From contig JAGLGN010000011.1 of the NCBI GenBank assembly GCA_023144005.1, forward strand, positions 1 through 14,483: a stretch of 14,483 nt of DNA, written 5' to 3'. Positions 1 to 14,280 of this stretch are shown one piece after another (the first letter of the stretch is position 1; each line of letters begins with the position of its first letter). Origin of the DNA: a bacterium. GTDB lineage: Bacteria; AUK180. The notes under the pieces were generated by a model. The model was not told the DNA's origin and ran no database searches. It saw only the letters and a program-made list of their open reading frames with translations. Both the position numbers and the translations under genes were made by a program.

Positions 1-152
1 TGCATTTCTTCTTTACAGGGCTTATGTCCATTAGCAGGACAATCAGGCTTTCCACCATTTCCGCAGAACTGGGGATCTTCTGAACAAAGTGCACAAAGAG
101 TGATCTCTTGGTCAGCAGCTTTTTTTCTTTCGGGTGTTGTGATAAATTTCAT
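1..152 (-). CDS. Cys-rich putative RiPP precursor peptide (second copy, 3' end cut by window edge)
   Basis: This small peptide gene runs off the start of the window; 50 codons are visible. The start ATG (152-150) has an AGGAG ribosome binding site six bases upstream. It begins M-K-F-I-T-T-P-E-R-K-K, closely matching the complete upstream copy (M-K-Y-I-N-T-P-E-K-M-K). Visible cysteines are C20, C23, C30, C38 and C46, in the same pattern C-x2-C-x6-C-x7-C-x7-C apart from one extra residue in each of the last two loops or none. The central C-A-L-C-S-E-D-P-Q-F-C-G is identical to the other copy. It lies 20 nt downstream of that copy, so both are probably on one transcript. By analogy a further C-A-L-C-S-E-D-P unit probably follows beyond the edge. 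The role as a modified-peptide precursor is inferred from the neighbouring radical SAM and ATP-grasp genes. A small metal-binding protein is the main alternative. Confidence 0.8.
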   Translation of the reverse strand, partial: MKFITTPERKKAADQEITLCALCSEDPQFCGNGGKPDCPANGHKPCKEEM

Positions 153-326
153 TATTATCTCCTATTATTGATTTAGAATAAATCGCCAGGACCGCAGAAT
201 CTAGGATCCTCTGAGCAAAGCGCGCAAAGTGTGTGCATTTCTTCTTTACAGGGCTTATTTCCATTCGCAGGACAATCATTTCCACCATTTCCGCAGAACT
301 GGGGATCTTCTGAGCAAAGCGCGCAA
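1..326. repeat. Direct DNA repeat underlying the duplicated Cys-rich peptide genes
   Basis: Bases 1-96 and 234-326 are near-identical copies; the first 24 bases of each match exactly and there is one 3-nt indel. A third, partial copy (about 190-233) repeats the segment encoding C-A-L-C-S-E-D-P-x-F-C-G within the complete gene. The pattern shows gene-level duplication layered on an intragenic motif duplication, with substitutions mostly at synonymous positions inside the core. Confidence 0.85.
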
Positions 327-382
327 TCTGTTTGCGGCTGTGTGTTAGCTTTCATCTTTTCTGGTGTGTTAATGTATTTCAT
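173..382 (-). CDS. Cys-rich putative RiPP precursor peptide (complete copy, 69 aa)
   Basis: This gene encodes 69 residues with eight cysteines: C20, C23, C30, C37, C45, C53, C56 and C63. A short Cys-free leader-like segment (1-19, starting M-K-Y-I-N-T-P-E-K) precedes a core that carries the motif C-A-L-C-S-E-D-P-x-F-C-G twice, at 20-31 and 53-64. These flank a G/N-rich linker with D-C-P-A-N-G and K-P-C-K-E-E-M-H. The ATG at 382-380 is chosen over an in-frame TTG further upstream because a perfect AAGGAGG (396-390) lies seven bases before the ATG and would sit inside the longer reading. A consensus promoter precedes it. I infer a substrate for the divergent radical SAM/SPASM and ATP-grasp enzymes. 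The conserved acidic residues beside the Cys pairs (S-E-D-P) and the Lys could be crosslink partners. The opening residues recall, from memory and unverified, Cys-rich peptides paired with clostridial radical SAM maturases. I do not recognise an exact family. Confidence 0.85.
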   Translation of the reverse strand: MKYINTPEKMKANTQPQTDCALCSEDPQFCGNGGNDCPANGNKPCKEEMHTLCALCSEDPRFCGPGDLF

Positions 383-389
383 TAAAACT

Positions 390-396
390 CCTCCTT
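390..396 (-). promoter_or_regulatory. Ribosome binding site of complete Cys-rich peptide gene
   Basis: The minus strand reads AAGGAGG, a perfect anti-16S match, followed by a 7-nt spacer to the ATG at 382-380. It fixes the start of the peptide and predicts strong translation. Confidence 0.85.
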
Positions 397-411
397 CCAA
401 ATTGTTGCGAC

Positions 412-440
412 ATTATATCAGAACAGATTCCCCATGTCAA
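412..440 (-). promoter_or_regulatory. Perfect consensus sigma-70 promoter for the Cys-rich peptide operon
   Basis: The minus strand reads TTGACA (440-435), a 17-nt spacer, then TATAAT (417-412). Both hexamers and the spacing match the housekeeping consensus exactly. Initiation would fall near 405, giving a leader of roughly 20 nt that contains only the ribosome binding site. High-level expression of the peptides is expected unless repressed. Confidence 0.85.
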
Positions 441-480
441 GAGCAAAATGAAAAAAACCCGTAATATATGCATCTTTTTT

Positions 481-552
481 TCCCGCAAAAATGACGCCAC
501 GCTCTTATTGGGGCTATATTGGGATATATTAGAGTATTAAATATTTGCGGGA
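481..552. promoter_or_regulatory. Separated inverted repeat between the divergent promoters
   Basis: TCCCGCAAA at 481-489 is matched in inverted orientation by TTTGCGGGA at 544-552, a 9-bp perfect inverted repeat with arms 54 bp apart. It lies between the two divergent promoters. Two half-sites this far apart could bind a looping or dimeric regulator. No regulator gene is visible in the window, and chance occurrence in AT-rich DNA is possible although the arms are GC-containing. Confidence 0.35.
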
Positions 553-555
553 TTG

Positions 556-569
556 TGAAATATATTTCA
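556..569. promoter_or_regulatory. 14-bp palindrome, candidate operator of the maturation operon
   Basis: TGAAATATATTTCA is a perfect dyad about 47 bp upstream of the -35 element of the plus-strand operon. The size and symmetry are typical of a dimeric helix-turn-helix regulator site. The AT-rich centre makes coincidence possible. Confidence 0.35.
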
Positions 570-616
570 AAGTTTTATCGTATTACATCAGAAATCTATA
601 CATTTCTTTCATTTGA

Positions 617-645
617 TTGACAATCGTTTGCATATTTGCTAAAAT
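617..645 (+). promoter_or_regulatory. Promoter of the ATP-grasp / radical SAM operon
   Basis: TTGACA (617-622), a 17-nt spacer and TAAAAT (640-645) form a near-consensus housekeeping promoter. Transcription would start near 652, only about 13 nt before the ATG at 665. That leaves room for just a short AGGG (657-660) as ribosome binding site, so translation of the first enzyme should be weaker than that of the peptides. Confidence 0.8.
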
Positions 646-664
646 CCGTACATCTTAGGGAAAT

Positions 665-1585
665 ATGAGAATTGGTATAATAGGGAGGCGTAGAACTCCC
701 AGCAGTGAATCATTAATCAAATTTCTTTCCGATAAGGGAGAGAAGGTCAGGTTTTTTGAGATCTCGCCGAAGTGCGAGGATCAGAAGATCGCCATAGATG
801 AATCCGGTATATTTATTACTACGGGGAATAGTGATGCGAATGGAGAGAACCTCTTTGACCTTGATCGTATCGTTTTTGACAATGCGACTTATTTCTGGTC
901 ACACCTTCAGCTTCGTAAATACTCCCGTGAATTCTGGAATGAGATCAAAGATACCTGGGATGAAGAGATCGCGAGCTTTCGTGAAAGTGAATCCGTGAGA
1001 TTCTCGGTATTCAGCATATTGAGCGAAGCGGTATCAGTTATCAATCCGATGAAGCTTTTTATGATGGCAGAATACAAACCGCTGTTTTTCAGATCCCTTC
1101 AGATGCACGGGATCAAGGTGTCGCCTTTTATCGTTTCAAATAGAAAACAGGAATTGATCGACTTCGGCGAAAAATACAGCACAGAAAGGATTACTCTGGC
1201 GCAGCAGTATATCGCTCCCGACTCCGACTGGCTCCGACAGATCAAGGATGCCGGAGAGAATATGGATATGCCTTTTTTTATTCAGAAGGTTCCTGCAGAT
1301 GGCCTGATGAAAATAGTTTTGACCGCAAATGAAGTTTTCCCAGTTGATGGACAGCAAAACGAGAAATTTTCGGATGCCGCGAGAAATATCACGGAATATA
1401 TTTCCAAAGCGATCGGAACTAACGATTATTTTATTGAACTTGAGGGGTATGAGGAAAACAAAGAGTTGTATATCACTCAAATGACGCCGGCACCCGATCT
1501 GAGAAACTATAGCACAGAAATCACTAATGGAATATATGAACTTATCACAAAACCTGGAGGAAGGGATGAAGGAATCAAGATATAA
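665..1585 (+). CDS. Degenerate ATP-grasp-fold protein of the putative RiPP operon
   Basis: This 306-residue protein resembles the intact ATP-grasp at the end of the same operon. Its N-terminus (M-R-I-G-I-I-G) is a pre-ATP-grasp-type strand. Residues 127-158 (I-N-P-M-K ... K138 ... G-I-K-V-S-P-F) align with the ATP-binding Lys region of the partner around K131. F-I-Q-K at 205-208 aligns with its I-L-Q-R. At the end, Y-I-T-Q-M-T-P-A-P (269-277) replaces Y-L-L-E-A-N-S-S-P: the metal-binding Glu becomes Q272 and the Asn becomes T274. The second basic loop (G-K-A-L-Y-K) has no clear counterpart. I infer a pseudoenzyme, perhaps a peptide-recognition or scaffold subunit for the active ligase, or a much-diverged ligase. 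It is the first gene of the operon, and its last 20 bases overlap the radical SAM gene. Only a weak AGGG ribosome binding site precedes it. Confidence 0.75.
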   Translation: MRIGIIGRRRTPSSESLIKFLSDKGEKVRFFEISPKCEDQKIAIDESGIFITTGNSDANGENLFDLDRIVFDNATYFWSHLQLRKYSREFWNEIKDTWDEEIASFRESESVRFSVFSILSEAVSVINPMKLFMMAEYKPLFFRSLQMHGIKVSPFIVSNRKQELIDFGEKYSTERITLAQQYIAPDSDWLRQIKDAGENMDMPFFIQKVPADGLMKIVLTANEVFPVDGQQNEKFSDAARNITEYISKAIGTNDYFIELEGYEENKELYITQMTPAPDLRNYSTEITNGIYELITKPGGRDEGIKI

Positions 1586-2942
1586 TTTCTTTTTTGAAAA
1601 AGGAGACGGCAATTATCTGGCATATAATGCTTTCACGAACGCCTTTGCCGAAGTAAGCGCAGAAGAATATGAGATCATCACTGAAATGCTGGAGGATCCC
1701 GGCAACTATGAATACAAGAGCAAGGATAAGGAGACCATTAAAGAAGAACTCACCTATGGCGGTTATCTGATAGATGACGATCTTGACGAATTGGATGCGC
1801 TGCGGCTTGAATATTACAGCGACAGATTCAATGACAAGTATCTGAACCTCACGATCGCGCCCACAATGCGATGCAATTTCAGATGTGAATATTGCTATGA
1901 AGAGCATCTGAAGGTAGATATGTCAAAAGAGATCCAGGATTCTATCGTAAAATTACTTGAAAATTCAGCCGGAAGGCTCAGTAATTTCAATGTTACATGG
2001 TTCGGCGGCGAGCCCACACTGAAGATGGACATCATTGAGGATATGACCGCGAGATTTAAAAAGATCTGCAAAGAGAACAATATCGCTTATTCGGCCACCA
2101 TCGTATCCAATGGATACATTCTTGATAAGAAAATGGCACAAAAACTCAAAGACCTCGATGTGATCATCGCCCAGATAACACTTGACGGGCCGAAAGAGAT
2201 ACATGATGTAAGACGGCCCGTTGTAGGCGGTGCCGGGTCCTTTGACAAGATCATCGATAATTTGAAGGAGATCTCAGATATCCTCAAGGTGCACCTTAGG
2301 ATAAATGTTGATAAAAATAATTACAAGGAAACAGAAGACCTCTTTGACTATCTTGAAGAAGTCGGACTTAAGAACAAGGTACTGCCGTACTTCGGGATAG
2401 TTACAGCATATACTGATACCTGTTCGAATATCGCGGAATCCTGTTTCGATCTGCAGGAATATTCGGATATCGAGATCACCATGTATGAGAAGGCGGTTGC
2501 CAAAGGATATAATATGGCAAAATATCCTCAGCGTATAAGCGGCGGATATTGCACGGCGGACAGAGTATCAAGTATGGCTATCGCTCCGAACGGACTGGTT
2601 TTCAATTGCTGGAACCATATGTCCTCCGAAAAAGATGATGCGGTCGGAAGTCTTACCGGAGAGAAATACGACAAATTTCTCTACAACTATCAGAAATGGA
2701 TGGGACATAATGTCTTTGAGAAAGAAAAATGCCGCGAGTGCAAAGTGCTTCCGATATGTATGGGCGGCTGCCCTTATGAGAATATGAAACTTACCGGAGA
2801 CGCGACGATCTGCAATCCCATGAAATTCAATATTACGAAGATCCTTCAGATCTATTATGACGCATCTAAGAAAATTCAGGGCAAGAATCACGGCAAGGCA
2901 AGAGAATTTGAGCAAAAGAGGGAAGAGCAGAACAAAAAATGA
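1566..2942 (+). CDS. Radical SAM/SPASM domain peptide maturase
   Basis: This 458-residue enzyme has the radical SAM cluster motif C103-x3-C107-x2-C110, followed by Y-E-E-H. W-F-G-G-E-P (145-150) is the SAM-binding G-G-E-P, and I-V-S-N-G-Y at 179-184 is also typical. The C-terminal SPASM domain is complete: C329, C348, then C389-x2-C392-x5-C398-x3-C402 and C416, enough for two auxiliary 4Fe-4S clusters. Residues 1-95 form a peptide-recognition-like N-terminal region (N-F-F-F ... L-A-Y-N-A-F-T-N-A). The start at 1566 is preferred to an in-frame ATG at 1527 because GGAGG (1556-1560) lies five bases ahead and family alignment begins at this point. SPASM enzymes typically install thioether or C-C crosslinks on ribosomal peptides using SAM. 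The likely substrates here are the divergent Cys-rich peptides, which is inference from position. An ATGA overlap couples it to the next gene. Confidence 0.92.
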   Translation: MKESRYNFFFEKGDGNYLAYNAFTNAFAEVSAEEYEIITEMLEDPGNYEYKSKDKETIKEELTYGGYLIDDDLDELDALRLEYYSDRFNDKYLNLTIAPTMRCNFRCEYCYEEHLKVDMSKEIQDSIVKLLENSAGRLSNFNVTWFGGEPTLKMDIIEDMTARFKKICKENNIAYSATIVSNGYILDKKMAQKLKDLDVIIAQITLDGPKEIHDVRRPVVGGAGSFDKIIDNLKEISDILKVHLRINVDKNNYKETEDLFDYLEEVGLKNKVLPYFGIVTAYTDTCSNIAESCFDLQEYSDIEITMYEKAVAKGYNMAKYPQRISGGYCTADRVSSMAIAPNGLVFNCWNHMSSEKDDAVGSLTGEKYDKFLYNYQKWMGHNVFEKEKCRECKVLPICMGGCPYENMKLTGDATICNPMKFNITKILQIYYDASKKIQGKNHGKAREFEQKREEQNKK

Positions 2943-3877
2943 AGACAGTAGGCATTTTCGGAAAAAAGGACAATAAAGAGGTATTGGCCGTTAAGGGGAA
3001 ACTCGCAGAACTCGGGGCTAAGACCGAAATACTGGACCTGACCGATTATCCCGCCGACCCGCGTCCATTTATGACCGATGAGGATATGATGATCGGAGAT
3101 GTCAATGCCGATTCACTTTATTCCGTATATGTCAACTCTCTCTGTCTCAGAGGATATCCCTTCCTGCACACTCCGAAAGATAAATGGAATGAATACTATG
3201 CAAGCTATATTCACTATGTTTCCAGAGAGAAGGAGAATTCCTCTTTCAGGTATTCATATATAAATTATCTCATTATGAAGGGGTGCCTGGTACTTAATGC
3301 CCCGTCAACCTACAATTACCACGCGATGAAGGTCTATGAATACTTCAGATTGGAAAAGCGCGGCTACAAGGTACCCGAGACCATCTCAGGCAGTGATCCC
3401 GAACGATTGAAGGCATTCATCCGGAGAATGGGCGGCAAGGCCCTCTACAAGGCAAATGTCGGAGGGTATCTTCATACGGTCCTCGTTGATGAGGCAGTCA
3501 TTGATGATGTAGCCGAATCCCTTACCGTAAGGCCGGTGATACTACAGAGATACATCAAGGGTTATAATATAAGGTGTTTCGTTCTGGAAGACAACTTCCT
3601 CGGCGCGGCAAAGATCATACAGACGGATGAGTTCGTCGACTCCCGTGTCGACAGCAAAGGCCTTGAGGTTGTTGAAATGCCTGAGGAGATCCAGAAAACA
3701 GCCATCAATGCCGTCCGGGATCAGGGCTTGATCTTCTCAGGGCTTGACTTTATGGTATCTGAAGAAGACGGTGAATATTATCTTCTGGAAGCCAATTCTT
3801 CTCCGATGTTCGCGAATTACGAGAACATGACCGGCCTGGATATCGCCGGCCCCATCGCCAAACGACTGGTTGAATAG
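2939..3877 (+). CDS. RimK-like ATP-grasp ligase of the putative RiPP operon
   Basis: This 312-residue protein has a pre-ATP-grasp N-terminus (M-K-T-V-G-I-F-G, about 1-115) and an ATP-grasp domain with its key residues in place. These are K131 in H-A-M-K, the K167/K171 loop with its Gly-rich end (G-K-A-L-Y-K-A-N-V-G-G), I-L-Q-R-Y-I-K-G at 201-208, R212, D270 in G-L-D-F, and the metal ligands E284 and N286 in Y-L-L-E-A-N-S-S-P. ATP-grasp enzymes of this kind activate a carboxylate as acyl phosphate and form an amide or ester. In RiPP pathways they make side-chain lactams or lactones, or add amino acids. It overlaps the radical SAM gene by ATGA and ends the operon. No clear hairpin-plus-U-tract terminator follows. 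The substrate is not shown by the sequence; the Asp/Glu- and Lys-bearing Cys-rich peptides are the obvious candidates. Confidence 0.88.
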   Translation: MKTVGIFGKKDNKEVLAVKGKLAELGAKTEILDLTDYPADPRPFMTDEDMMIGDVNADSLYSVYVNSLCLRGYPFLHTPKDKWNEYYASYIHYVSREKENSSFRYSYINYLIMKGCLVLNAPSTYNYHAMKVYEYFRLEKRGYKVPETISGSDPERLKAFIRRMGGKALYKANVGGYLHTVLVDEAVIDDVAESLTVRPVILQRYIKGYNIRCFVLEDNFLGAAKIIQTDEFVDSRVDSKGLEVVEMPEEIQKTAINAVRDQGLIFSGLDFMVSEEDGEYYLLEANSSPMFANYENMTGLDIAGPIAKRLVE

Positions 3878-3984
3878 TATTTTTGTCTTGTTTTAATCTT
3901 AATATTTTTGTTAACTTTGTGAACCACCGTCCCCATTGTTCTACGATTATTCTCAACCTGTGAACTTTTGAACACTTCTCAATA

Positions 3985-4018
3985 ATTGTTCATTGTCAAT
4001 TGTACATTGTTCATTGTC
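3985..4018. repeat. Short intergenic direct repeat (ATTGTTCATTGTC x2)
   Basis: The 13-bp word ATTGTTCATTGTC occurs at 3985-3997 and again at 4006-4018, a 21-bp period, with a CAATTG dyad between. It lies just downstream of the tRNA-Leu 3' end and of the radical SAM operon. No T-tract hairpin makes it a convincing terminator. Similar low-complexity repeats are common in intergenic DNA of uncultivated bacteria. Confidence 0.5.
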
Positions 4019-4023
4019 TTCAG

Positions 4024-4110
4024 TGGTGCCGGAGGTGGGACTTGAACCCACACATCCCAAAGGACACTGGATTTTGAATCCAGCGCGTCTGCCAATTCCG
4101 CCACTCCGGC
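4024..4110 (-). tRNA. trnL: tRNA-Leu(CAA)
   Basis: The minus strand folds as a class II tRNA. The acceptor stem is GCCGGAG/CTCCGGC with discriminator A and an encoded CCA (4026-4024). The anticodon stem is CTGGA/TCCAG around loop TTCAAAA, giving anticodon CAA (4076-4074), which reads UUG. The variable arm is long, as expected for Leu, and the T-arm contains GTTCAAGTC. The length is 87 nt including CCA. Confidence 0.97.
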
Positions 4111-4155
4111 ATTATTTAATGATCTGAAAAAGATCAAGGGCATTTACAGGTACAG

Positions 4156-4183
4156 ATTATACAGAATTATCGGCAAAAATCAA
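4156..4183 (-). promoter_or_regulatory. Promoter of tRNA-Leu
   Basis: The minus strand reads TTGATT (4183-4178), a 16-nt spacer and TATAAT (4161-4156), about 45 nt upstream of the tRNA. The -35 overlaps the stop codon of the last gene of the long operon, so the tRNA can be expressed both from its own promoter and by read-through. Confidence 0.65.
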
Positions 4184-4788
4184 AATATTGAAGTGATTTT
4201 CTCAAAGAAGATATTAATCACCTCAATGAGAAGCGATATCCTGCCCATAATGGTATAACCGAAGGACGCGCCGAAGCCGAGCATCATAAAAAATATTCCT
4301 ATATTCGCGATGAGTTTTTCCGCGGGGCGGTCGCGTCGCAGGACAAAAAGGAAATAATACATAGTAGTAAGCAAAGCGATCAGTATGATGATGTAATTAA
4401 TGACCTGCCCTGCAGACATCCCGCTGAAATTCACCGCCGTGGCATTGATCTGTCGCAGAATGGAGGTTTCGATACGCGGGCCTATCTCCAGACCTACACC
4501 GGTGCCAAGGAGGAATGCCAATGGATATTTTGCGAGGAAGTTCCATCTTTTGGAAAAGGTAAAAAAGAACATCATTCCCAGAAGCCCGGGGATGATGACC
4601 CAGTATTGCCCCTCTTGAAAAAGCGGTATCCAGAATTTTTTGATAAAGCCGTCATCAAAGAGCTTAAGAAATCCATATCCTGCCGAGATACCGACGATAA
4701 GGCGTTCGGTGAATTTGAAGAACGGATTATCTCCCATCAGGAATGATAATACGAAAAGCATCAGGATCAGGGTGATTATCTCAACCAT
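4180..4788 (-). CDS. Multi-pass membrane protein of unknown function (last gene of membrane module)
   Basis: This 202-residue, very hydrophobic protein has about six predicted membrane segments: roughly 1-18, 28-44, 61-78, 85-102, 128-149 and 160-183. It has no recognisable catalytic motif. A conserved-looking loop R-P-A-E-K-L-I-A-N-I-G precedes a Gly-rich segment (G-F-G-A-S-F-G-Y). The gene overlaps the preceding gene by 8 nt and is the last of four tightly packed membrane-protein genes, so a shared complex is likely. I do not recognise the function. Confidence 0.8.
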   Translation of the reverse strand: MVEIITLILMLFVLSFLMGDNPFFKFTERLIVGISAGYGFLKLFDDGFIKKFWIPLFQEGQYWVIIPGLLGMMFFFTFSKRWNFLAKYPLAFLLGTGVGLEIGPRIETSILRQINATAVNFSGMSAGQVINYIIILIALLTTMYYFLFVLRRDRPAEKLIANIGIFFMMLGFGASFGYTIMGRISLLIEVINIFFEKITSIF

Positions 4789-5584
4789 TTTTCCTCTTTG
4801 ACATGAAGTACTCGATATTCCCCATGAGAACCAGCAGCATGATCAGGATATGCGCAAGTGTCTGAGCAGCCATTCCGCGCCTTGCGCGGCCGGAAACATT
4901 GAGAAGCGTTTCATACTCCGCAGCACCGCGAAGGCCTCCGAGAAGCCCTTTTAACTGCCCTGATTCGAGATACGGATAATATTCCGATGCCATGACTGCG
5001 GTGACACCCGCCGCCATCGGCACATCATATTTTGTGCTAAGGTATGTCAGAAGATCAACCGTGGAATTGCCGTCTGCAAGATCGATCAGGAGCTTGACAT
5101 CCCGTAAATTCTTTACATCTTCATATAATTTGGTGGAATTCAATTTAACGCCGTGCATACTGGCGGGATAAACGCTGTAAAGGTCTTCTCCCAATTTCTG
5201 ATAGACCGCCTTATCACCGGGAACAAATCCCAGATAATACCAGTCGCTATTCTCGATCTTACCGTTCTTTGAGGCAATATCGGAGATCACCGAGAAACCA
5301 AGGTCAGAGATATTGATATTCTGCGGATTCAGGAAGATCACATTCAGGCCGTTTTCGAATATATTTTCCGTCAATGCCTTGAGCATCGGCACCAACTCCG
5401 CCTTTGTCGATGGGTCAAAGGATAATGTGACCGCGATGTAATCCCCAGGAGATAATTCGGCGACAGAATCAAAAAAAGTCATTACGGGCTTGGTCGGTTT
5501 CACCTTAAAGGTAAGGCCGAAAAGCATGGGGACAAGAATAAAGGCCAGAAGTAAGAAATACACCAACCTTCGATGCAATTTCAT
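4781..5584 (-). CDS. Membrane-anchored hypothetical protein with large extracytoplasmic domain
   Basis: This 267-residue protein has an N-terminal membrane anchor (7-25), a soluble region of about 210 residues and a C-terminal membrane segment (about 240-260) ending in K-R-K-N-G. By the positive-inside rule the soluble domain probably faces the periplasm. The start ATG at 5584-5582 overlaps the stop of the preceding gene (ATGA), with a GGGGTGG ribosome binding site. An in-frame reading extending to 5701 is rejected because it would run through the neighbour's coding sequence and has a basic, non-membrane N-terminus. The soluble part alternates strands and helices (for example N-V-I-F-L-N at 81-86 and K-L-L-I-D-L-A-D at 164-171), suggestive of an alpha/beta fold. 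The function is unknown. Confidence 0.8.
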   Translation of the reverse strand: MKLHRRLVYFLLLAFILVPMLFGLTFKVKPTKPVMTFFDSVAELSPGDYIAVTLSFDPSTKAELVPMLKALTENIFENGLNVIFLNPQNINISDLGFSVISDIASKNGKIENSDWYYLGFVPGDKAVYQKLGEDLYSVYPASMHGVKLNSTKLYEDVKNLRDVKLLIDLADGNSTVDLLTYLSTKYDVPMAAGVTAVMASEYYPYLESGQLKGLLGGLRGAAEYETLLNVSGRARRGMAAQTLAHILIMLLVLMGNIEYFMSKRKNG

Positions 5585-6237
5585 TTCAGCCACCCCCTTT
5601 CTATGCCCAATATAACCTTCAACGAGGTGGAAACGATGCCGAGAGTGATACCGAAAATAAACGCTCTTTTTATACCGACATTTGGAACGGTGAGGATCCA
5701 TCGTGTCCAGCCGGGGAAATCAAGGATCGCAAAATCCTTTCCTGAAATACTTATCGTAGTCCATGTGGCGATCAGATCTCCCAGAGGGATCCTCCCCATG
5801 ACAACGATCATCGCGGCGATCAGCAAGACCGTGGATGAGAAGTTCTTCGCCCTGAACGCCCTGTATGCGGCGGATGAGATATAAAAAGCGAGAAGTGAAA
5901 ATATTGTTGCCTGCAGCGGCACAAGAAAATTATTATAAATGAAATTCACCGGGCTGCCCTGCTTGAGCCCGAAAAATATACCCAGGAGAACGACCGCGAA
6001 AAATGAGATCAATGTCGTCAGGGGATATACGGGATGCTCCGTTTTTTGCCTGAAATTCTTCCATTGCCTTTCTATGAGCGACTTAACTGCGATGACGAGA
6101 GCAAAAACAGCTATCACCATATGCCAGTCAAGCACTCCTTTATAAATATTATTCAATAGCGGAATATCAATATAATACTGAAAGGTCATCAGCATACCGC
6201 CGATAAAGACAATGAGAAGCGGTACCATTATCTTCAT
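5581..6237 (-). CDS. Multi-pass membrane protein of unknown function
   Basis: This 218-residue protein has about six predicted membrane segments, near 3-20, 37-52, 72-90, 106-125, 134-151 and 190-208. A motif-like stretch I-S-S-A-A-Y-R-A-F-R-A-K lies after segment four, at a cytoplasmic-type basic loop. The gene is joined by ATGA overlaps to both neighbours, so stoichiometric production with the DUF6754-like protein upstream and the anchored protein downstream is likely. I do not recognise a named family. From memory it resembles proteins found beside DUF6754 genes in other lineages, which I could not verify. Confidence 0.82.
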   Translation of the reverse strand: MKIMVPLLIVFIGGMLMTFQYYIDIPLLNNIYKGVLDWHMVIAVFALVIAVKSLIERQWKNFRQKTEHPVYPLTTLISFFAVVLLGIFFGLKQGSPVNFIYNNFLVPLQATIFSLLAFYISSAAYRAFRAKNFSSTVLLIAAMIVVMGRIPLGDLIATWTTISISGKDFAILDFPGWTRWILTVPNVGIKRAFIFGITLGIVSTSLKVILGIERGWLK

Positions 6238-7025
6238 AGATTCACCACGAATATCTTGATCAGAATATAAGCGATCGTTGCCGCTTTGGCAAGATCCAGC
6301 ATAAATATCGATCTTAATGATGCCTCGTCATTCTGTATGTAAGCGCTGGCGGCAAAAAGCTCCTCTCCCATCAAGAGATAATCACAGGTTGTAATAAAAA
6401 ACGGTATTTGCGCCACCGAATCGGTACCTGCTATCTGAATAGCGCCCGTGTTCTGGCCATGCTCCGTAAGAATGAGGGATTCGGCATAAAAGGTTCCCAT
6501 ATAAAAGATGGCGCCGGGACGGACTTTCGAGGTAAGAGCGTTTATACCCGCCGCATACGGAAATTGTGAGTCGGTTAGATAAAAGATGCTGCAGTCCCGA
6601 AAGAGCTCCTCATTATTGGCGCTTCGCAGGCCTTCCTTGATCTCTTCCGTGGCAGCAATCATCGTAATGGAATTATTATGAGGAGATACAATGGGGGTGC
6701 CGTATCTTGCGGCGAGCTTCGCTATCCTTCCCAGAACATTCATACCGGCAACGGCGGAAACAGACGGTACCGGCTTGGTCCCGGAAATAAAAAGGATGGG
6801 CTTGCCCATCTCGGTAGAGCGGCCTATCGCCTCCTCAAGGGCTTTTATCCCCGCGATCTCTCTTGTCTTTAGTGAGGGGATCTTTGGCGATCGGAATAGA
6901 ATAAAAAGTATGAGAAAGGCAAAGAAGTACAGCATTCCCTCAAGTCCCGCTCCGCTCGAAGCGCCCTTGAGCTCAAACGAAATGAGCAGAAGGGAGAGAA
7001 TTGATGCAGTTTTACCGATCTTCAA
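6234..7025 (-). CDS. DUF6754-like membrane protein
   Basis: This 263-residue protein has an N-terminal hydrophobic stretch (6-18), a membrane segment at about 28-44 and a C-terminal one at about 245-262. The soluble domain between contains G-K-P-I-L-F-I-S-G-T (73-82), F-Y-L-T-D-S-Q-F (149-156) and G-A-I-Q-I-A-G-T (194-201). The overall layout fits what I recall of DUF6754, a family of unknown function; the assignment is from memory. The start codon is TTG (7025-7023), five bases after the upstream stop and without a clear ribosome binding site, so translation probably depends on coupling to the lipoprotein gene before it. It is the first of the four-gene membrane module. Confidence 0.75.
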   Translation of the reverse strand: MKIGKTASILSLLLISFELKGASSGAGLEGMLYFFAFLILFILFRSPKIPSLKTREIAGIKALEEAIGRSTEMGKPILFISGTKPVPSVSAVAGMNVLGRIAKLAARYGTPIVSPHNNSITMIAATEEIKEGLRSANNEELFRDCSIFYLTDSQFPYAAGINALTSKVRPGAIFYMGTFYAESLILTEHGQNTGAIQIAGTDSVAQIPFFITTCDYLLMGEELFAASAYIQNDEASLRSIFMLDLAKAATIAYILIKIFVVNL

Positions 7026-7030
7026 ATTTG

Positions 7031-8038
7031 TTACTGTACGGCTTTTGCGTGGGTGTCAGATTCAAGAGCCTGCTGAACGGCTGTCATATCACCGCGTACA
7101 AGCGCTTCTAAATTCTTGAGCATCATTTGCCGTTTAAACGGCTTCAAGAGCTTTTCTTTTACCGGATTGTTCAGGCGGCTGACCATATTATCATAATACT
7201 GTTCCTTGATAAAATCATATCTGTCTTCCAGTTTATGTACATCCGCAACATAGATGATCACCCAGCCCTCGGCCGAACGGAATGGCTTTGAATAGGTTTT
7301 GGCTTTCATTTTCTGCATATTGTAATCGAATACACGGGAATGGTCACCCAGATCAACCCAGCCCAAAGCGCCGGCCGATGAGACCCATTGGGGATTGCCT
7401 TCGGTATATAGGCGGGATATCTTAAGAAAGTCCTCACCTTTTTGCAAAAGCTCATATGCCTTGAAGATCTTTTTGCGCGCCGCCTCAACCTCGGCCTCCG
7501 AGCTGTTCTCGAAACATTGTGTTAATATTACATAGACCGCGTACCTGTCAAGTTCTCCCTGATGCTCTTTGTAGTATTTCTTGATGGAAGCGGGAGTCAT
7601 AGAGATACTTTTTTCCACTTCCACAGAGATCAATTTCTTTACAAGATTGAATTCCGCTTTATTCTCATACTGCTTTTTCAGGCGCTGCATTGCCCGCAAA
7701 AAATCTACTTCGCGGTCATATCCTCTTTTCTTGGCAAGATATACACCTATCTTCTGTTCAAGTATGCGTTCGACCAATTTCTCCATTTCATTTCTATCGG
7801 TAAGTATTATGGTCTTTTTTCCGGAATAATAAAGATCTATCCAATCATATACATCCTGAGCTGAGACCGTGATGCCTTCCGGAGTTCTGGCAACGATCAC
7901 CTCCGTCTTAATATCTTCCTTGGTCGGATAGTCACTAAGCGCTAAGCGGGAATCAGAGGGTTTGGCATCCTCGTTATCCCTGCATCCCGCAAAAGCTATT
8001 AAGAAAACCATAAGCACTATGATAAGAATATTTTTCAT
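7031..8038 (-). CDS. PpiC-type (parvulin) peptidyl-prolyl isomerase lipoprotein
   Basis: This 335-residue protein starts at an ATG (8038-8036) that overlaps the previous stop by ATGA and is preceded by GGAGG. The first 18 residues are a lipoprotein signal ending F-A-G before C19, so lipid anchoring at C19 is likely, though Phe at -3 is slightly unusual. Residues about 60-160 form a SurA-N-like helical chaperone region. Residues 165-268 form a parvulin domain with Y-V-I-L, G-E-D-F (201-204), the hallmark A-G-A-L-G-W-V (222-228), Y-S-K-P-F (249-253) and G-W-V-I-I-Y-V (258-264). It probably assists folding of exported or outer-membrane proteins. Its position directly before the membrane module suggests it may serve that complex. 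Confidence 0.87.
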   Translation of the reverse strand: MKNILIIVLMVFLIAFAGCRDNEDAKPSDSRLALSDYPTKEDIKTEVIVARTPEGITVSAQDVYDWIDLYYSGKKTIILTDRNEMEKLVERILEQKIGVYLAKKRGYDREVDFLRAMQRLKKQYENKAEFNLVKKLISVEVEKSISMTPASIKKYYKEHQGELDRYAVYVILTQCFENSSEAEVEAARKKIFKAYELLQKGEDFLKISRLYTEGNPQWVSSAGALGWVDLGDHSRVFDYNMQKMKAKTYSKPFRSAEGWVIIYVADVHKLEDRYDFIKEQYYDNMVSRLNNPVKEKLLKPFKRQMMLKNLEALVRGDMTAVQQALESDTHAKAVQ

Positions 8039-9585
8039 TTGGATTCCTCCTTTATATAAATACTGATCCGATTCCTGCCCTCTTCTTTGGATAAATAGAG
8101 AGCTTGATCGCATTTTTCTATTATTTCGATAACACTTTCACCACCGCCGTTATATTCATTCACTCCGCCTGAAATCCGGACATTGATCTTCCGGTCGTCA
8201 TCCAGAATAAAGTCATTTTTCACCATTTTTTTTCTAACTCTTTCCGCTATATTGAATGCTGCTTTCATATCTGCGCCGACCAATACAACAGCAAATTCTT
8301 CGCCGCCGTAACGGGCAATAATATCCTTTACATTCAAACGGATATTATCCCGCAGCAATTGAGAAAAATCTATAAGCACCGAATCACCAGCAAGATGGCC
8401 GTAATTGTCATTGACCGCCTTGAAGTGGTCCAGATCGAAAATGATCAGCGAGAATTGCTCATCCATATCGATCAGTTCCTTCATCATATTCTTAAGATAT
8501 GCCTGATGGTAAAAGCCTGTCATACCGTCCGAATTCGCTCTTTTGTACAATAAGGCGTTATTTACAAAGATACCCGCCTGAGCGAGAAAGGAATTGGACA
8601 GCGCCTCCTTTTTCATAGAGAGCTCCGGCATCTTCGTGATCTTGAAGTACCCCTGCTGGGTAAATACATCATTGAGGGGAAATATATTGGGATCGCCGGC
8701 ATCTCCCGGAGGGGGACCCAATTTCAATTTCACCATCCCGGTACCGGTCAATTTCTTGAATTTTTCACTGATGAGGGTGGATAACTTATCAAGATCTAGA
8801 ACGCCCGAAAGTTCTTTCACCATCTCATTGATCCTGTAGAGGTCTCCCAGAATCGGGTCTTCTCCAACCAGAGTACGAACATCTTCATCTACAAAATTGC
8901 ATATTACTCTGAAGTCACAAAACCGGCAATGACTGCCTGGAGAAGCGTCGTATCCCTTGAGTTTTGAGCGCGACAGGTCTCTTTTAAATCCCTTGATCAA
9001 GTCCCTAATGGCGTCATATGTCAATAGCTTTTCTCTGGGAACCTCTATCTGTTTATTCAATACGACATTTTCCCACATTATCCTCTTTACGGGCTGGCCG
9101 TATTTTTCTTCGGTAAGCACCCTGTACAGCCCCATTTGAATGTCGGCAATCAACTCGTCGTCAGATGGCAGATATTTGCCCGTTTTATAATCCGTAATGG
9201 TGAGCATGCCGTCCTTGTCGCGATCCAGGCGGTCGATCTTTACGAAGAAATCATCCCCGAGCCAACGGACCTTCAAGGTAACATCGTTCTCTACGACCGG
9301 ATCATTCGAGAAGGTGTTCTCAATGTATTTATGTATCACTTCCCTGGCACGTGTGATCAGGGAATTGTCTGTCAATCCGAGTTCCAATGCCGCTTTGGAG
9401 ATCAATCTGTTGATATCCGTTTCCTGATCAGCGAAATATTCAAAGAGAGAGGAATGGACGAGATTGGAAAAATTCAAGGCAACACTTTCTGAAGAATATG
9501 CTTTGCCAAGGCCCTGCACATAATGATATTTATATTTCATGGGGCATTGAAGGTATGTTTTCAGCCTGAAGGCGGATATATTCAT
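8035..9585 (-). CDS. PD-(D/E)XK nuclease - GAF - GGDEF fusion protein
   Basis: This 516-residue protein has three recognisable parts. Residues 1-235 look like a RecB/Cas4-type PD-(D/E)XK nuclease: H44, D118 (K-I-D-R-L-D), D132-Y-K134 (T-D-Y-K-T-G) and Q150, with four cysteines C14, C220, C223 and C229 placed as in Fe-S-bearing members of that family. Residues about 245-348 have the pattern of a GAF sensor domain. Residues about 350-512 are a GGDEF diguanylate cyclase: D-G-M-T-G-F, the metal-site F-D-L-D-H-F (383-388) and an active-type G-G-E-E-F (427-431). The usual inhibitory RxxD site is N-V-K-D here, so product inhibition may be lost. It overlaps both neighbours by ATGA. I infer a c-di-GMP synthase whose activity could respond to DNA or to the Fe-S state, or a nuclease-fold domain reused as a sensor. 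Confidence 0.88.
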   Translation of the reverse strand: MNISAFRLKTYLQCPMKYKYHYVQGLGKAYSSESVALNFSNLVHSSLFEYFADQETDINRLISKAALELGLTDNSLITRAREVIHKYIENTFSNDPVVENDVTLKVRWLGDDFFVKIDRLDRDKDGMLTITDYKTGKYLPSDDELIADIQMGLYRVLTEEKYGQPVKRIMWENVVLNKQIEVPREKLLTYDAIRDLIKGFKRDLSRSKLKGYDASPGSHCRFCDFRVICNFVDEDVRTLVGEDPILGDLYRINEMVKELSGVLDLDKLSTLISEKFKKLTGTGMVKLKLGPPPGDAGDPNIFPLNDVFTQQGYFKITKMPELSMKKEALSNSFLAQAGIFVNNALLYKRANSDGMTGFYHQAYLKNMMKELIDMDEQFSLIIFDLDHFKAVNDNYGHLAGDSVLIDFSQLLRDNIRLNVKDIIARYGGEEFAVVLVGADMKAAFNIAERVRKKMVKNDFILDDDRKINVRISGGVNEYNGGGESVIEIIEKCDQALYLSKEEGRNRISIYIKEESK

Positions 9586-10385
9586 TTTTTAAATACTATC
9601 CCGCAATAAGCTACGACTTCCTGACTATCTCCGGTCACCTCTCCGCTATTGGTATATTCAACGACCTCGGCCTTTAATTGCATGAGAGAGGAAGTCTTTA
9701 TCAAGACATAGACCGCTTCCGCTCCGCAGATGCTTATCTTCTCGTTACGCACCGCATTCAGAAAACCTGGACCATCACCTTTCAAAATATTCTCAATGGC
9801 GATATGATCCTTTCTGGCGGCTTCGGCTGCGGATTCATAATGAGTAAAATCGCTTGAAATGATCAGTCCCCAGTCGGAATTCTCTTTTAAAAACTCATAG
9901 ATGGAGATCGCAAGTTTGTCAAGCACATCCAGCGGTGAATGAAAGAGTGAAATCGGGCAGAATTCAATATCTCCTTTTGACATTTCGATAAGAAACGGCA
10001 ATTGCACCTCGATGGAATGTTCCCGCGAATGAGCAAGGGCATCTTCCGAGATCATATTTCCCATTGACTCGAGAAAGAAATCGTTGACATGGGCCGAGAC
10101 CAAAGCTTTTCCATTAGGCAATTGCCAAACACCGTTCTTTGGGAAAAGCGCCATCCGACCGCCAAACCCTCTATGATTAGGGCCCAGAATAATGAAGCCC
10201 TTCATGGGCGGGAAACGGCAAAGAGTCTTAAGCGCGGTTCTGCCCGAATATATCCATCCGGCATGCGGGACCACTACCGCTCTTGCTTGTGAATCTGTTG
10301 AAAATTCCTGAGAGCCAACGAACTCTCTTATGATATGCGGATCATCTTCATAAAAAGTTCCCGCGACAACGGGCGGCCTCAGCAT
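9582..10385 (-). CDS. amrB: MEMO-family protein (AmmeMemoRadiSam system protein B)
   Basis: This 267-residue protein is full length for the MEMO family. It begins R-P-P-V-V-A-G-T-F-Y and carries V-P-H41-A-G-W-I-Y-S-G, G-P-N-H71-R-G, R-E-H-S-I-E-V-Q-L-P-F-L (121-132), S-S-D-F-T-H182-Y and I-C220-G-A-E-A. H41, H71, H182 and C220 correspond to the metal-binding set described for human MEMO1. In many microbes MEMO occurs with an AMMECR1 protein and a radical SAM enzyme; neither is adjacent here. The only radical SAM in the window belongs to the unrelated SPASM type. The biochemical role of bacterial MEMO is not settled. It lies in the long operon, six nt after the CheC-like gene and overlapping the nuclease-GGDEF fusion gene. 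Confidence 0.93.
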   Translation of the reverse strand: MLRPPVVAGTFYEDDPHIIREFVGSQEFSTDSQARAVVVPHAGWIYSGRTALKTLCRFPPMKGFIILGPNHRGFGGRMALFPKNGVWQLPNGKALVSAHVNDFFLESMGNMISEDALAHSREHSIEVQLPFLIEMSKGDIEFCPISLFHSPLDVLDKLAISIYEFLKENSDWGLIISSDFTHYESAAEAARKDHIAIENILKGDGPGFLNAVRNEKISICGAEAVYVLIKTSSLMQLKAEVVEYTNSGEVTGDSQEVVAYCGIVFKK

Positions 10386-10391
10386 TGGGTC

Positions 10392-11000
10392 TTATACCTT
10401 CATCATCTCAAAGATGGTTTTCAGACTTTGCTCGTCCGGGAATAAGAAGAAATCACCGGAGATACGCGTTTTGTTCGCGCGCAGCTCGGTCTCTATCCAT
10501 AGAGCGTTCTGAACAACATCCTTGAATCGAATAGAAAAATATGACAGGACACCGGCCAGGGTATCAATGGAAATATGAGGGACGGAGGGAAGGAGAATCC
10601 CGTCAACGACCTGAGAGATCGCATTAAGATAAGAAGATGCAAGGATATTCCCCACTTCCTTCAAAGCCGATTCTTCAACCTCGGAGATCTTATGTATTGT
10701 TCCCAGATCTTTTCTTAAAAGGATCTCGGTCAAGGTCATCGCATTCTTATATTCAAAGAATATGAGGATCTTGCCATTGATCTTGCCGTACATATCCATG
10801 TAGATCGAGATGCCCGGTATATCATTGAATTTCTTTGATTTCTCAATTTGCGCCTTTCTCACAAATGTAACCTTGGGCACAGACATTTCAATCGTCTGGC
10901 CAATCATCTGCGAAAGGGCGGTTGCGGCATGGGCGGCGCCGATATTGCCCAGTTCCTTCAAAGCATCTTTTTGTTTGTCATCTAAATTTTCGATCTTCAT
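10392..11000 (-). CDS. cheC: CheC-like phosphatase
   Basis: This 202-residue protein has the duplicated CheC helix motif. E16-L-G-N19 (in D-A-L-K-E-L-G-N-I-G) and E115-V-G-N118 (in S-A-L-K-E-V-G-N-I-L) retain both Glu and Asn, so two active phosphatase sites are expected. CheC proteins dephosphorylate CheY-P or related response regulators. No other chemotaxis or flagellar gene is present in the window, so it may act on a response regulator of another pathway, possibly one linked to the diguanylate cyclase two genes downstream; this last point is inference. The start overlaps the stop of the SurA-like gene by ATGA. Confidence 0.88.
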   Translation of the reverse strand: MKIENLDDKQKDALKELGNIGAAHAATALSQMIGQTIEMSVPKVTFVRKAQIEKSKKFNDIPGISIYMDMYGKINGKILIFFEYKNAMTLTEILLRKDLGTIHKISEVEESALKEVGNILASSYLNAISQVVDGILLPSVPHISIDTLAGVLSYFSIRFKDVVQNALWIETELRANKTRISGDFFLFPDEQSLKTIFEMMKV

Positions 11001-12175
11001 TTGTACACCTGTATAAAATTCTCTGCCCTGGCTTCTGCGATCAGGTCTTTCAGTAGAACAGAGAACTTCTCTTCATATTTTTCATTGTATATTCTTGTAT
11101 AAACAGTGCCAATATCGCTATATTCACTCTCAAGAATATCATTTAAACGGATAACATATGCCCCCAAGCGGCCTTGAAGAGAATGCAATTCTCCGGGTTT
11201 TAGAGAAATTACCGTTTTTTCGATACCAAGAGTGTTCAAATTATCCACCGTAAGCTGAGGCTCAGTGAAATAATTATCTTGATCCGGATCTTCTTTGCTC
11301 TTATATTCATTGAAAGAGGCGCCTTTGGTGATCTCTGACTGTATTCCCTGTGCACTCTCCAAAGCGGCCTTCATACTGCTTTTGGTCGTGGTACTCGGGA
11401 TGAGATAATACTTAACGGACGGGGTTTCAGCATCATACTTGACGACCTTATAGAATGACAATCCCTTTTCAGAAAGAAGTGAATCGGTATATCCTGATTT
11501 TTTCCCGATTAGGATCTTCTTCTGATCTTCCGTCAAATACTCGATATACAGCTTCTTGAACTCCTTGACCTCGACAGCCTTGGGAACCTTGCCGGTCTTT
11601 CTGATCTTTCTATAGATATTCTGCATCGCTTTTATATCAACGGCAGAAATATAGATGGAAGATATATCATATCTGAGCGGAGCACTTTTAAATTTCTCCC
11701 TGTTCTCTTTGTAATACTCCTCTACCTCATCGGTAGAGATCGAGATCTTTTTTCTGATCTTATCTTCGATTATCATTTCCTTCAGATACTGATTTTTTAT
11801 CTGCTTGCGATAATTCTCTTTCAATGCAGAAAGCGTAAGGCCTTCCCTCTTCAACGCCTCTTTAAAAGCATCATCTGAAGGATATTGCGAACGCTGATTT
11901 GCAATAGACTGATCGATATTGTAATCGATCTCTTGATCGCTGATCTCATATTCCCTATCCTTTGCCGATGCGATGACCAGCTGATCCTCTACGAGTTTAT
12001 TAAGAACTTCACCGTATTCCAATGTCCCTCTTCTGTCAAATAAAATGATCAGCTGGACATCAAAATCGGTAATGATCTGATCATTGACCCGTGCAACTAT
12101 TTTGTTTATTATCTCGGACCGCGGTGTGGTTATCGCGATCAAGGCAATAAGCAGAACAAAGATAACTTTCTTCAT
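10997..12175 (-). CDS. SurA-like periplasmic chaperone with degenerate parvulin domains
   Basis: This 392-residue protein has an N-terminal signal peptide (1 to about 20, K-K followed by a hydrophobic stretch). The SurA N-domain opening follows: N-K-I-V-A-R-V-N-D-Q-I-I-T (24-36). Helical segments run to about 155. The remainder fits two diverged parvulin-like modules, about 165-250 and 255-365, that lack the usual catalytic signature, so chaperone rather than isomerase activity is more likely. In diderm bacteria SurA escorts outer-membrane proteins across the periplasm. A GGAG site precedes the ATG, which lies 11 nt after the phosphofructokinase stop. Confidence 0.83.
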   Translation of the reverse strand: MKKVIFVLLIALIAITTPRSEIINKIVARVNDQIITDFDVQLIILFDRRGTLEYGEVLNKLVEDQLVIASAKDREYEISDQEIDYNIDQSIANQRSQYPSDDAFKEALKREGLTLSALKENYRKQIKNQYLKEMIIEDKIRKKISISTDEVEEYYKENREKFKSAPLRYDISSIYISAVDIKAMQNIYRKIRKTGKVPKAVEVKEFKKLYIEYLTEDQKKILIGKKSGYTDSLLSEKGLSFYKVVKYDAETPSVKYYLIPSTTTKSSMKAALESAQGIQSEITKGASFNEYKSKEDPDQDNYFTEPQLTVDNLNTLGIEKTVISLKPGELHSLQGRLGAYVIRLNDILESEYSDIGTVYTRIYNEKYEEKFSVLLKDLIAEARAENFIQVYK

Positions 12176-12186
12176 ATATTCTCCGG

Positions 12187-13227
12187 TTATCCAAAAAAGA
12201 TACTTGCGTCATTATATCTTTCTTCGGTAACATGTTTTAATGTCGTGATGGCATCCGCTAAGGGTGACGTGCCTATAGTCGATCCCTTCAGGGCGACCAT
12301 TTTACCCCAATTTTTCTCTTTGACCAATTCCGCCGCCTTCACGCCGAATCTGGTTCCCAGAACACGGTCAAATGCGCTTGGATTCCCGCCGCGCTGAAGA
12401 TGGCCCAATACTACTGCCCTGGTCTCAAGGCCGGTACGGTCACCTATTTCTTTCGCGAGGACCTCTCCGATCCCTATGCCGGACCAGAGCTGGGCATGGC
12501 CAAATTCATCTTTTTCCGCGGAATGCATGATATGCGCGCGCAATTTTGGGTCGTCCGCGCCCTCCGCCACCGCGATGATGAGATAATTATTTTTCTTGTA
12601 GGCGATTTGAACTTCTTTCGCGAAATCATCAATATCAAAATCCATCTCCGGGATCAGGATAAAGTGCGCGCCGCCGGCAATCCCGCCATGGAGAGTGATC
12701 CATCCCGCGGTACGGCCCATGATCTCCACGACCATGACCCTTCTGTGTGCCTTTGTGGTCGTATGAAGCCAGTCTAATGTTTCCATAACCCTGTTTATCG
12801 CGGTATCAAAACCAAATGTGTAATCCGTGGCATTGACATCATTGTCTATCGTCTTAGGAACCCCGATCACATTCAAGCCGTCATCAGAAAGCTTACTCGC
12901 CACTCCAAGGGTATCATCGCCGCCGACTGCTATGAGGGCCTGCAAGCCGGTCTCTTTATAAGCCTGCTTCACCAGCTCAACACCGTTCTCTCTTTTGTAA
13001 ACATTGGTTCGCGAACTCCCTAAAATGGTACCGCCCTGCCTATGTATATCATTGACCCTTTCAAGCGTCAATACTTCGTAATCCTGTTCCAATATGCCCT
13101 TCCAGCCCAAATGGAAGCCGATTACCTCGAAACCTGCTTGAATTAAGGGATATGTAACCCCTCTGATAACTGCGTTAAGGCCCGGGGCGTCTCCACCACC
13201 GGTGAGAATGCCGATTCTTTTAGTCAT
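12187..13227 (-). CDS. pfkA: Phosphofructokinase, residues predict PPi dependence
   Basis: This 346-residue enzyme of the PfkA superfamily phosphorylates fructose 6-phosphate in glycolysis, or does the reverse if PPi-linked. G-G-G-D-A-P-G-L-N-A (10-19) is the N-terminal signature, G-G-D-D-T (102-106) the phosphoryl-donor loop, P-K-T-I-D-N-D (124-130) the catalytic loop with D128, and M-G-R (170-172) the substrate site. Residues D105 and K125 correspond to E. coli Gly104 and Gly124. Asp and Lys at those places are the pair associated with PPi-using enzymes of the long group, whereas ATP enzymes have Gly at the first site. The start ATG follows GGAGGAG with a 6-nt spacer. It is the first gene of the ten-gene operon. 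Donor specificity is inference and needs an assay. Confidence 0.93.
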   Translation of the reverse strand: MTKRIGILTGGGDAPGLNAVIRGVTYPLIQAGFEVIGFHLGWKGILEQDYEVLTLERVNDIHRQGGTILGSSRTNVYKRENGVELVKQAYKETGLQALIAVGGDDTLGVASKLSDDGLNVIGVPKTIDNDVNATDYTFGFDTAINRVMETLDWLHTTTKAHRRVMVVEIMGRTAGWITLHGGIAGGAHFILIPEMDFDIDDFAKEVQIAYKKNNYLIIAVAEGADDPKLRAHIMHSAEKDEFGHAQLWSGIGIGEVLAKEIGDRTGLETRAVVLGHLQRGGNPSAFDRVLGTRFGVKAAELVKEKNWGKMVALKGSTIGTSPLADAITTLKHVTEERYNDASIFFG

Positions 13228-13251
13228 AGCGGACTCCTCCGAATATTTATT

Positions 13252-13280
13252 ATTTTAATGGTTTTTGGTCTATATGTCAA
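13252..13280 (-). promoter_or_regulatory. Promoter of the phosphofructokinase-led operon
   Basis: The minus strand reads TTGACA (13280-13275), a 17-nt spacer and TAAAAT (13257-13252). The predicted start near 13245 gives a leader of about 18 nt that contains the GGAGGAG site. No other strong promoter was noticed by eye inside the operon. Confidence 0.78.
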
Positions 13281-13332
13281 GCGGAAGAGACAAAGTTGAG
13301 TAGGGCAGGAGATAGTTCCTGAGAGGATTTTC

Positions 13333-13411
13333 AATGGTGGGCGAAACTGGACTCGAACCAGCGACCTCATGGGTGTAAACCATGCGTTCTAGCCAACTGA
13401 ACTATTCGCCC
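13333..13411 (-). tRNA. trnV: tRNA-Val(UAC)
   Basis: The minus strand folds as a class I tRNA: acceptor GGGCGAA/TTCGCCC with discriminator A and an encoded CCA (13335-13333). The anticodon stem is CATGG/CCATG with loop TTTACAC, giving anticodon TAC, which reads GUA. The T-arm contains GGTTCGAGTCC. The D-arm is GTTC/GAAC. The 5' boundary is certain to within about two bases. Confidence 0.96.
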
Positions 13412-13424
13412 TCATTGAAAGGGT

Positions 13425-13452
13425 ATTATACGGATTTCTGCAAAAATGTCAA
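13425..13452 (-). promoter_or_regulatory. Promoter of tRNA-Val
   Basis: The minus strand reads TTGACA (13452-13447), a 16-nt spacer and TATAAT (13430-13425). Both hexamers match the consensus, and transcription would begin only a few bases before the tRNA 5' end. Confidence 0.8.
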
Positions 13453-13465
13453 ATCCGATCTTTAT

Positions 13466-13494
13466 TTGATTTTTTACAGAAATTTCTGTAATAT
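13466..13494 (+). promoter_or_regulatory. Candidate promoter giving a leaderless transcript
   Basis: TTGATT (13466-13471), a 17-nt spacer and TAATAT (13489-13494) face the small membrane-protein gene. Initiation seven bases after the -10 would fall at about 13501, the A of the second of two tandem ATG codons. The gene has no Shine-Dalgarno sequence, which fits leaderless translation. Confidence 0.45.
13474..13491. promoter_or_regulatory. 18-bp perfect palindrome overlapping a promoter
   Basis: TTACAGAAATTTCTGTAA is a perfect dyad that spans the -35/-10 spacer and part of the -10 of the plus-strand candidate promoter. It also lies upstream of the divergent tRNA-Val promoter. The position suits a repressor-type operator. 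It has no T-tract or loop to act as a terminator. Confidence 0.5.
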
Positions 13495-13497
13495 TCT

Positions 13498-14088: not shown

Positions 14089-14154
14089 TGTTTCATAATT
14101 AGCTTGACAATGGAATGTTTAGATTTGAGTCAATTCCAACGATAAATGCAGTCT

Positions 14155-14240
14155 GAAGTGTGAAGTGTGAGGTGTAAAGTGGGAACCGGGATGAAATAAA
14201 ACTGGATCCCACGGTCACCAACTCCCTCTGGATGACACTT
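14155..14240. repeat. 7-bp tandem repeat with distal inverted partner
   Basis: GAAGTGT, GAAGTGT, GAGGTGT and AAAGTGG follow in tandem at 14155-14182. CACTTTCCACTTC at 14228-14240 is their approximate inverse complement. The arms enclose GGATCCCACGGTC...GGATGAC. The unit could fold into an imperfect stem, as in dispersed palindromic intergenic elements. Confidence 0.5.
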
Positions 14241-14280
14241 TCCACTTCTTTATTTTCCTTCCCGCATCCGCTCACCGGGA

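Follow-up and report, generated by a model that had tools for sequence, protein, structure and literature searches.

On balance we regard the first 3,877 bases of the stretch of DNA analysed here (the window: 14,483 nucleotides, contig C3, positions 1-14483) as part of a RiPP cluster, whose likely product is an exported, multiply cross-linked Cys-rich peptide. That this is a RiPP locus, as the initial annotation had proposed, is well supported, because precursors and enzymes are co-distributed among genomes, the precursors share a leader motif, the genes are under purifying selection, and exporter and peptidase-candidate genes accompany them. As judged from sequence comparisons, the system would combine the workings of a Clo7bot-type radical SAM peptide system with those of a graspetide ligase.

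Layout of the cluster and the contig break

Two tandem genes for Cys-rich peptides on the reverse strand are divergent from three overlapping enzyme genes on the forward strand:

3-152, reverse strand: precursor peptide 2, leader MKFITTP, truncated by the contig and window end after ...KPCKEEM
60-95, reverse strand: motif in peptide 2, CALCSEDPQFCG
173-382, reverse strand: precursor peptide 1 (69 aa with 8 Cys; leader MKYINTP)
191-226, reverse strand: motif copy 2 in peptide 1, CALCSEDPRFCG
290-325, reverse strand: motif copy 1 in peptide 1, CALCSEDPQFCG
440-412, reverse strand: promoter-like site of the peptide array, TTGACA-17-TATAAT with TG (12/12), conserved in the sister genome
617-645, forward strand: promoter-like site of the enzyme operon, TTGACA-17-TAAAAT with TG (11/12), conserved in the sister genome
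665-1585, forward strand: first ATP-grasp, a degenerate homologue aligned to ligase 2 by hhalign, active-site columns lost
1566-2942, forward strand: radical SAM/SPASM peptide maturase, Clo7bot-like, 458 aa, with a CxxxCxxC motif and all Cys of the SPASM set
2939-3877, forward strand: ATP-grasp ligase 2, graspetide-synthetase-like, active-site residues intact

The coordinates bear out the arrangement first noticed, tandem Cys-rich peptides facing away from a coupled ATP-grasp-like/radical SAM/ATP-grasp operon, and neighbouring enzyme genes share 20 and then 4 bases at their junctions. The divergent units are separated by a 282-base spacer with two outward-facing, near-consensus promoters, and a good ribosome-binding site, GGAAGGAGGAG, precedes peptide 1. 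This peptide indeed has the 69 residues, the 8 Cys and the two copies of C-A-L-C-S-E-D-P-x-F-C-G described initially. It is 78% identical to peptide 2 across 49 aa, peptide 2 being incomplete at the contig end. Between the two sister genomes dN/dS is 0.03-0.20, which supports coding; the values for the enzymes (0.06-0.12) and for the peptides (0.10-0.19, with 0.13 for peptide 2) indicate purifying selection. Beyond the cluster, the window carries a tRNA-Leu and then unrelated genes. At 8035-9585, a 516-aa protein fuses a PD-(D/E)XK nuclease domain (PF12705) to a GGDEF diguanylate cyclase domain.

The peptide array is interrupted by an assembly break at base 1 of the window. At the end of another contig, C2, lies a further, distinct precursor (precursor 3) that lacks its start, FITTPERKKADDAVVTLCALCSEDPNFCGDNGDQGGSGNGTCPWYGCRSKFLHL. 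The C2 and C3 ends carry 25-base exact repeats of peptide-gene sequence that recur inside the window, and these repeats account for the halt of the assembler at both ends. The adjacency of C2 and C3 is thus inferred from contig ends that both lie within peptide-gene repeats. We set aside the reading of C2 and C3 as unrelated contigs, given these repeats and the fact that the contigs of the sister genome G001 (JAGLWT010000043) end at the same region, with the same gene sets at two contig ends. A separate, dispersed repeat, whose frames read ...GTFTSGQTNA(Y/C)GVRHVPYL, occurs at several sites in both sister genomes (L006 9083-9232, L009 4270-4419 and L023 4577-4765).

Adjoining precursor 3 on C2, and convergent with it, is an operon for an ABC exporter, an HlyD-like adaptor, a carboxymuconolactone decarboxylase (CMD)/AhpD-like protein with CxxCxxxH, and a peptidase candidate:

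L006 12465-13685: HExxxH zinc peptidase candidate, 406 aa, with HEFFGH and SEGIA

A strong terminator-like hairpin lies between the peptidase gene and the precursor array. The remark that neither protease nor exporter was visible therefore holds for the window itself, and it reflects the assembly break: the exporter and peptidase-candidate genes are at the C2 end. In the candidate, HExxGH and the downstream SEGIA are conserved across three homologues. It had no match in Pfam or among PDB sequences, and its structure model (pLDDT 59) had no Foldseek match at E ≤ 0.001. VIA-align of the model over the HExxxH region returned oligoendopeptidase F, DUF885 and M1 aminopeptidases (Z 6.5-7.4) mixed with unrelated helical rows, and we claim no family assignment.

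The radical SAM enzyme and the leader of the precursors

Comparison with relatives places the start of the radical SAM gene at 1566 and not at 1527. The CxxxCxxC motif reads CNFRCEYC, the seven-Cys SPASM pattern is C329-x13-G-x4-C348, C389-x2-C-x5-C-x3-C402, C416, and the Cys residues of both are invariant wherever a homologue covers them. The best NCBIfam models are TIGR04334 (Clo7bot; 357.5 bits, cut-off 600) and TIGR04463 (320 bits, cut-off 525). On TIGR04334, the homologue in genome G006 scores 358 bits and a true Clo7bot enzyme 775. In a tree built from 29 relatives, the window's class contributes four enzymes, which group together (100/99); closest to this group are two from other lineages (97/95), and the two true Clo7bot enzymes are separate. 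By these comparisons the enzyme belongs to the Clo7bot/TIGR04463 superfamily, in a clade of its own below the cut-offs. In this tree, loci L082 and L083 form the group nearest to the window enzyme, and at L082 7264-11569 (G665:C10) three radical SAM genes surround a 35-aa peptide, MEYLVKPNSGDTKSGCPTVCTEVIYIISTCPPNRH.

The likeness to Clo7bot (TIGR04333 peptide, TIGR04334 CtpM maturase) extends to the whole system: the enzyme is alignable end to end (357 bits) and is 39% identical to the Paraclostridium enzyme, and both systems have tandem Cys-rich precursors with the leader MK[YF]IxxP and a neighbouring ABC exporter. The differences are the score below the TIGR04334 cut-off and the separate clade. 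Likewise, with TIGR04333 (cut-off 31 bits) the precursors of genome G005 reach 13 bits and those of the window are unmatched, when ten peptides of the control genome G299 score 36-51. In the open-access literature we found no paper on Clo7bot, TIGR04334, TIGR04463 or CefB, a weak absence.

All window-class precursors with an intact start conform to the leader M-x-[YFW]-[ILVM]-x-x-P. With these precursors excluded, 25 of 1,828 small ORFs in the neighbourhoods of 25 radical SAM relatives have this leader, against 2 of 1,826 in shuffled DNA, counts that are descriptive and not a test since the motif was picked after the peptides had been seen. At least 3 Cys are found in 21 of these 25 ORFs. Cys-rich precursors with this leader close to the maturase, the mark of the Clo7bot-like superfamily, are thus present in the window. 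The initial view that no recognised family matched has to be amended, as both the radical SAM enzyme and the leader fall in the TIGR04334/TIGR04463 superfamily, though below cut-offs. Short Cys peptides starting with M-x-[YW]-[IVLM]-x-x-P also adjoin Clo7bot/TIGR04463-like enzymes at L086 9022-9126, L087 3483-3824 and L083 3936-4046.

The 8 Cys per peptide and their CxxC spacing would also suit metal-binding mini-proteins or metallophores (for Fe, Cu or Zn) that are matured or trimmed and then exported, cross-linking being secondary. Weak zinc-finger-like matches point the same way, but they are far under the cut-offs, on which ground we rejected a zinc finger; moreover, the radical SAM maturases of the superfamily adjoin Cys-rich precursors with the same leader. 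We therefore consider metal binding as the main function to be distinctly unlikely.

Ranthipeptides (PapB, PMC9413430) resemble the window system in combining motifs of Cys and Asp/Glu with a SPASM maturase, but the spacing in the window is Cys-X2-Asp or Cys-X5-Asp, and the window enzyme reaches 153 bits with the PapB model, short of its cut-off of 340.

An intact and a degenerate ATP-grasp protein

Of the two ATP-grasp enzymes proposed initially, one stands as such and the other looks catalytically dead. The best solved relative of ligase 2 is 7DRM (E 3e-22, 83 bits), which we take to be PsnB; its record reads ATP-grasp domain-containing protein. Ligase 2 retains K171, R212, D234, R236, D270, E284 and N286, so that it shares with graspetide synthetases (PsnB/plesiocin, CdnC, MdnB/C) the conserved K, R, D, E and N of the active site. 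It is an ATP-grasp protein related to characterised synthetases with its active site intact, as expected of a graspetide ligase; its score is far under the cut-off of every RiPP ATP-grasp family. Unlike in these systems, the window operon also includes a paired, degenerate ATP-grasp and a Clo7bot-like radical SAM gene, and the precursor core is Cys-rich.

An alternative is that the ATP-grasp pair adds amino acids to the peptide of a Clo7bot-like radical SAM system, for example by RimK-like glutamate or other tailing of an acidic C-terminal end, and makes no cross-links. The RimK Pfam model does match ligase 2, RimK-type glutamate ligases are its next-best solved relatives, and several precursors have acidic residues at the C-terminal end. 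Against this, the best glutamate ligase scores 45 bits compared with 83 for 7DRM, and the best NCBIfam model is TIGR04187 (RiPP ATP-grasp subfamily, 78.9 bits), though rimK_fam is close (78.4 bits). We judge tailing unlikely, and retain cross-linking as the preferred role of ligase 2.

The first ATP-grasp has no significant family match, its two weak NCBIfam matches (E ~0.06) being both to RiPP ATP-grasps. Aligned to ligase 2 by hhalign, it scores 42.2 over 259 columns, against at most 19.3 in 60 column shuffles and 12.0 and 18.8 for unrelated profiles; by this profile evidence it is a full-length homologue of ligase 2. The ATP-binding Lys segment is lost, and the metal residues D/E/N are replaced by E/Q/T in G000 and by D/D/I in G006, with the proviso that single columns may be misplaced in an alignment of such distant homologues. 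We dropped its structure model (pLDDT 41). The protein is probably a non-catalytic partner of ligase 2.

In microviridin biosynthesis, MdnB and MdnC are two ligases making two different bonds. By analogy, the first ATP-grasp could be active with unusual residues, each ligase forming its own bond; its purifying selection (dN/dS 0.12) and its overlap with the next operon gene are in keeping with this. The missing Lys segment and the replaced metal residues, misplaced columns allowed for, argue to the contrary, and we hold a second active ligase to be very unlikely.

The profile of the presumed non-catalytic partner also finds (E 4e-13) an intact ATP-grasp of another lineage, at locus L106 of genome G535. 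There, two ATP-grasp genes lie in tandem near a radical SAM gene; one is intact and the other shows similar losses, so that an intact/degenerate pair is seen twice. L106 may be a second peptide cluster in which a dead ATP-grasp serves as partner. Its region (219-7534, G535:C62) has a PqqD-like/radical SAM gene, a thymidylate-kinase-like gene, several nucleotidyltransferase-like genes and an HlyD protein. No paper on an inactive ATP-grasp partner was found in the open-access literature, a weak absence, and 25 Clo7bot-like neighbourhoods yielded no homologue of the window ATP-grasp proteins.

Clusters with both ATP-grasp and SPASM proteins have been described in other groups (PMC8939145, PMC13097080), as the initial annotation noted. 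The grasp-with-SPASM systems (TIGR04192/TIGR04193; graspetide branch 5 / group 14) share this pairing, but ligase 2 has 27 bits on TIGR04192 (cut-off 230), TIGR04193 has no match to the window radical SAM gene, and precursors and lineage differ. In rosaritide, the graspetide synthetase requires a co-purifying PpiC-type partner protein (PMC13097080); dependence on a partner would be common to both systems, the proposed partner in the window being a degenerate ATP-grasp. Since SPASM plus ATP-grasp clusters and partner-dependent graspetides were already described, the cluster is a variation on established modified-peptide families and not wholly new.

Distribution of the cluster and its proposed product

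Profile searches covered 386 genomes, including 7 of the window's class. Precursors, radical SAM enzyme and ligase 2 co-occur in the same 4 of the 386, all from one small class: the window genome, its sister G001, and G005 and G006 from another family of that class. The two enzymes score >670 bits (radical SAM) and >570 bits (ligase 2) in the four carriers. Beyond these, the precursor profile gave only one weak match among the 386 genomes (E 0.006, two internal stops). Three same-family genomes have no precursor, radical SAM enzyme or ligase 2 at the limits used, the precursor had no tblastn match in plasmids, and the radical SAM enzyme had none in viral contigs.

The degenerate ATP-grasp is found in 3 of the four carriers, the G005 contig ending before its position. 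The order ABC-HlyD-CMD-peptidase is retained in G005, and ATPgrasp-rSAM-ATPgrasp in G006. Beside the exporter operon of G006 lie a single precursor and the last part of a second one; no peptidase candidate turned up in this genome (72% complete), a point against the cluster reading. Another such point comes from the G005 precursors:

L032 3738-4451 (G005:C275): a tandem of three precursors that has its own TTGACA promoter-like site

Their contig has no maturation enzymes and unrelated neighbours; linkage between precursors and enzymes is therefore not obligatory. As G005, G006 and the window genome differ in the number and placement of precursors, array composition varies, while the block T-[LM]-C-A-L-C-S-E-D-P-x-F-C is invariant across precursors. 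The motif copy kept by the other-family precursors (G005, G006) is the C-terminal one (191-226 in peptide 1). Downstream of ligase 2 in G005 (L018 234-1101, G005:C320), genes read by eye encode a receiver-like protein of 98 aa and one resembling a nitroreductase, a pair not seen, again by eye, in the other genomes.

The most likely product, by comparison with relatives, is a peptide cross-linked through thioethers and lactams/lactones and then exported. The Clo7bot-like enzyme would bind the precursors through their short leader at the N-terminus, M-K-[YF]-I-x-T-P, and form Cys thioethers in the CxxCSEDPxFC block, most likely from Cys to Asp/Glu as in ranthipeptides, the linked residues being a guess. 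Ligase 2 would then activate an Asp/Glu side chain with ATP and close a lactone or lactam with Ser, Thr or Lys, with the degenerate ATP-grasp as a non-catalytic partner holding substrate or leader. Finally, in this putative order, the HExxxH peptidase candidate would trim the peptide and the ABC exporter with its HlyD-like adaptor would send it out; the AhpD/CMD-like CxxC protein may maintain the thiol redox state. We tentatively propose, as possible if short of probable, a hybrid class of RiPPs: a single Cys-rich core would carry both radical SAM thioethers and graspetide lactone/lactam links, the latter from a heteromeric synthetase with a working ATP-grasp subunit and a degenerate one that would be the leader or substrate receptor.

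The cluster places the Clo7bot-like maturase superfamily, with its common short leader, in this bacterial lineage, and the leader signature offers a simple route to unannotated precursors beside Clo7bot-like enzymes. If the proposed pathway is true, a small core cross-linked by both a radical SAM enzyme and an ATP-grasp ligase would be very rigid, and the use of a dead ATP-grasp subunit as partner would be a new way of controlling graspetide ligases.
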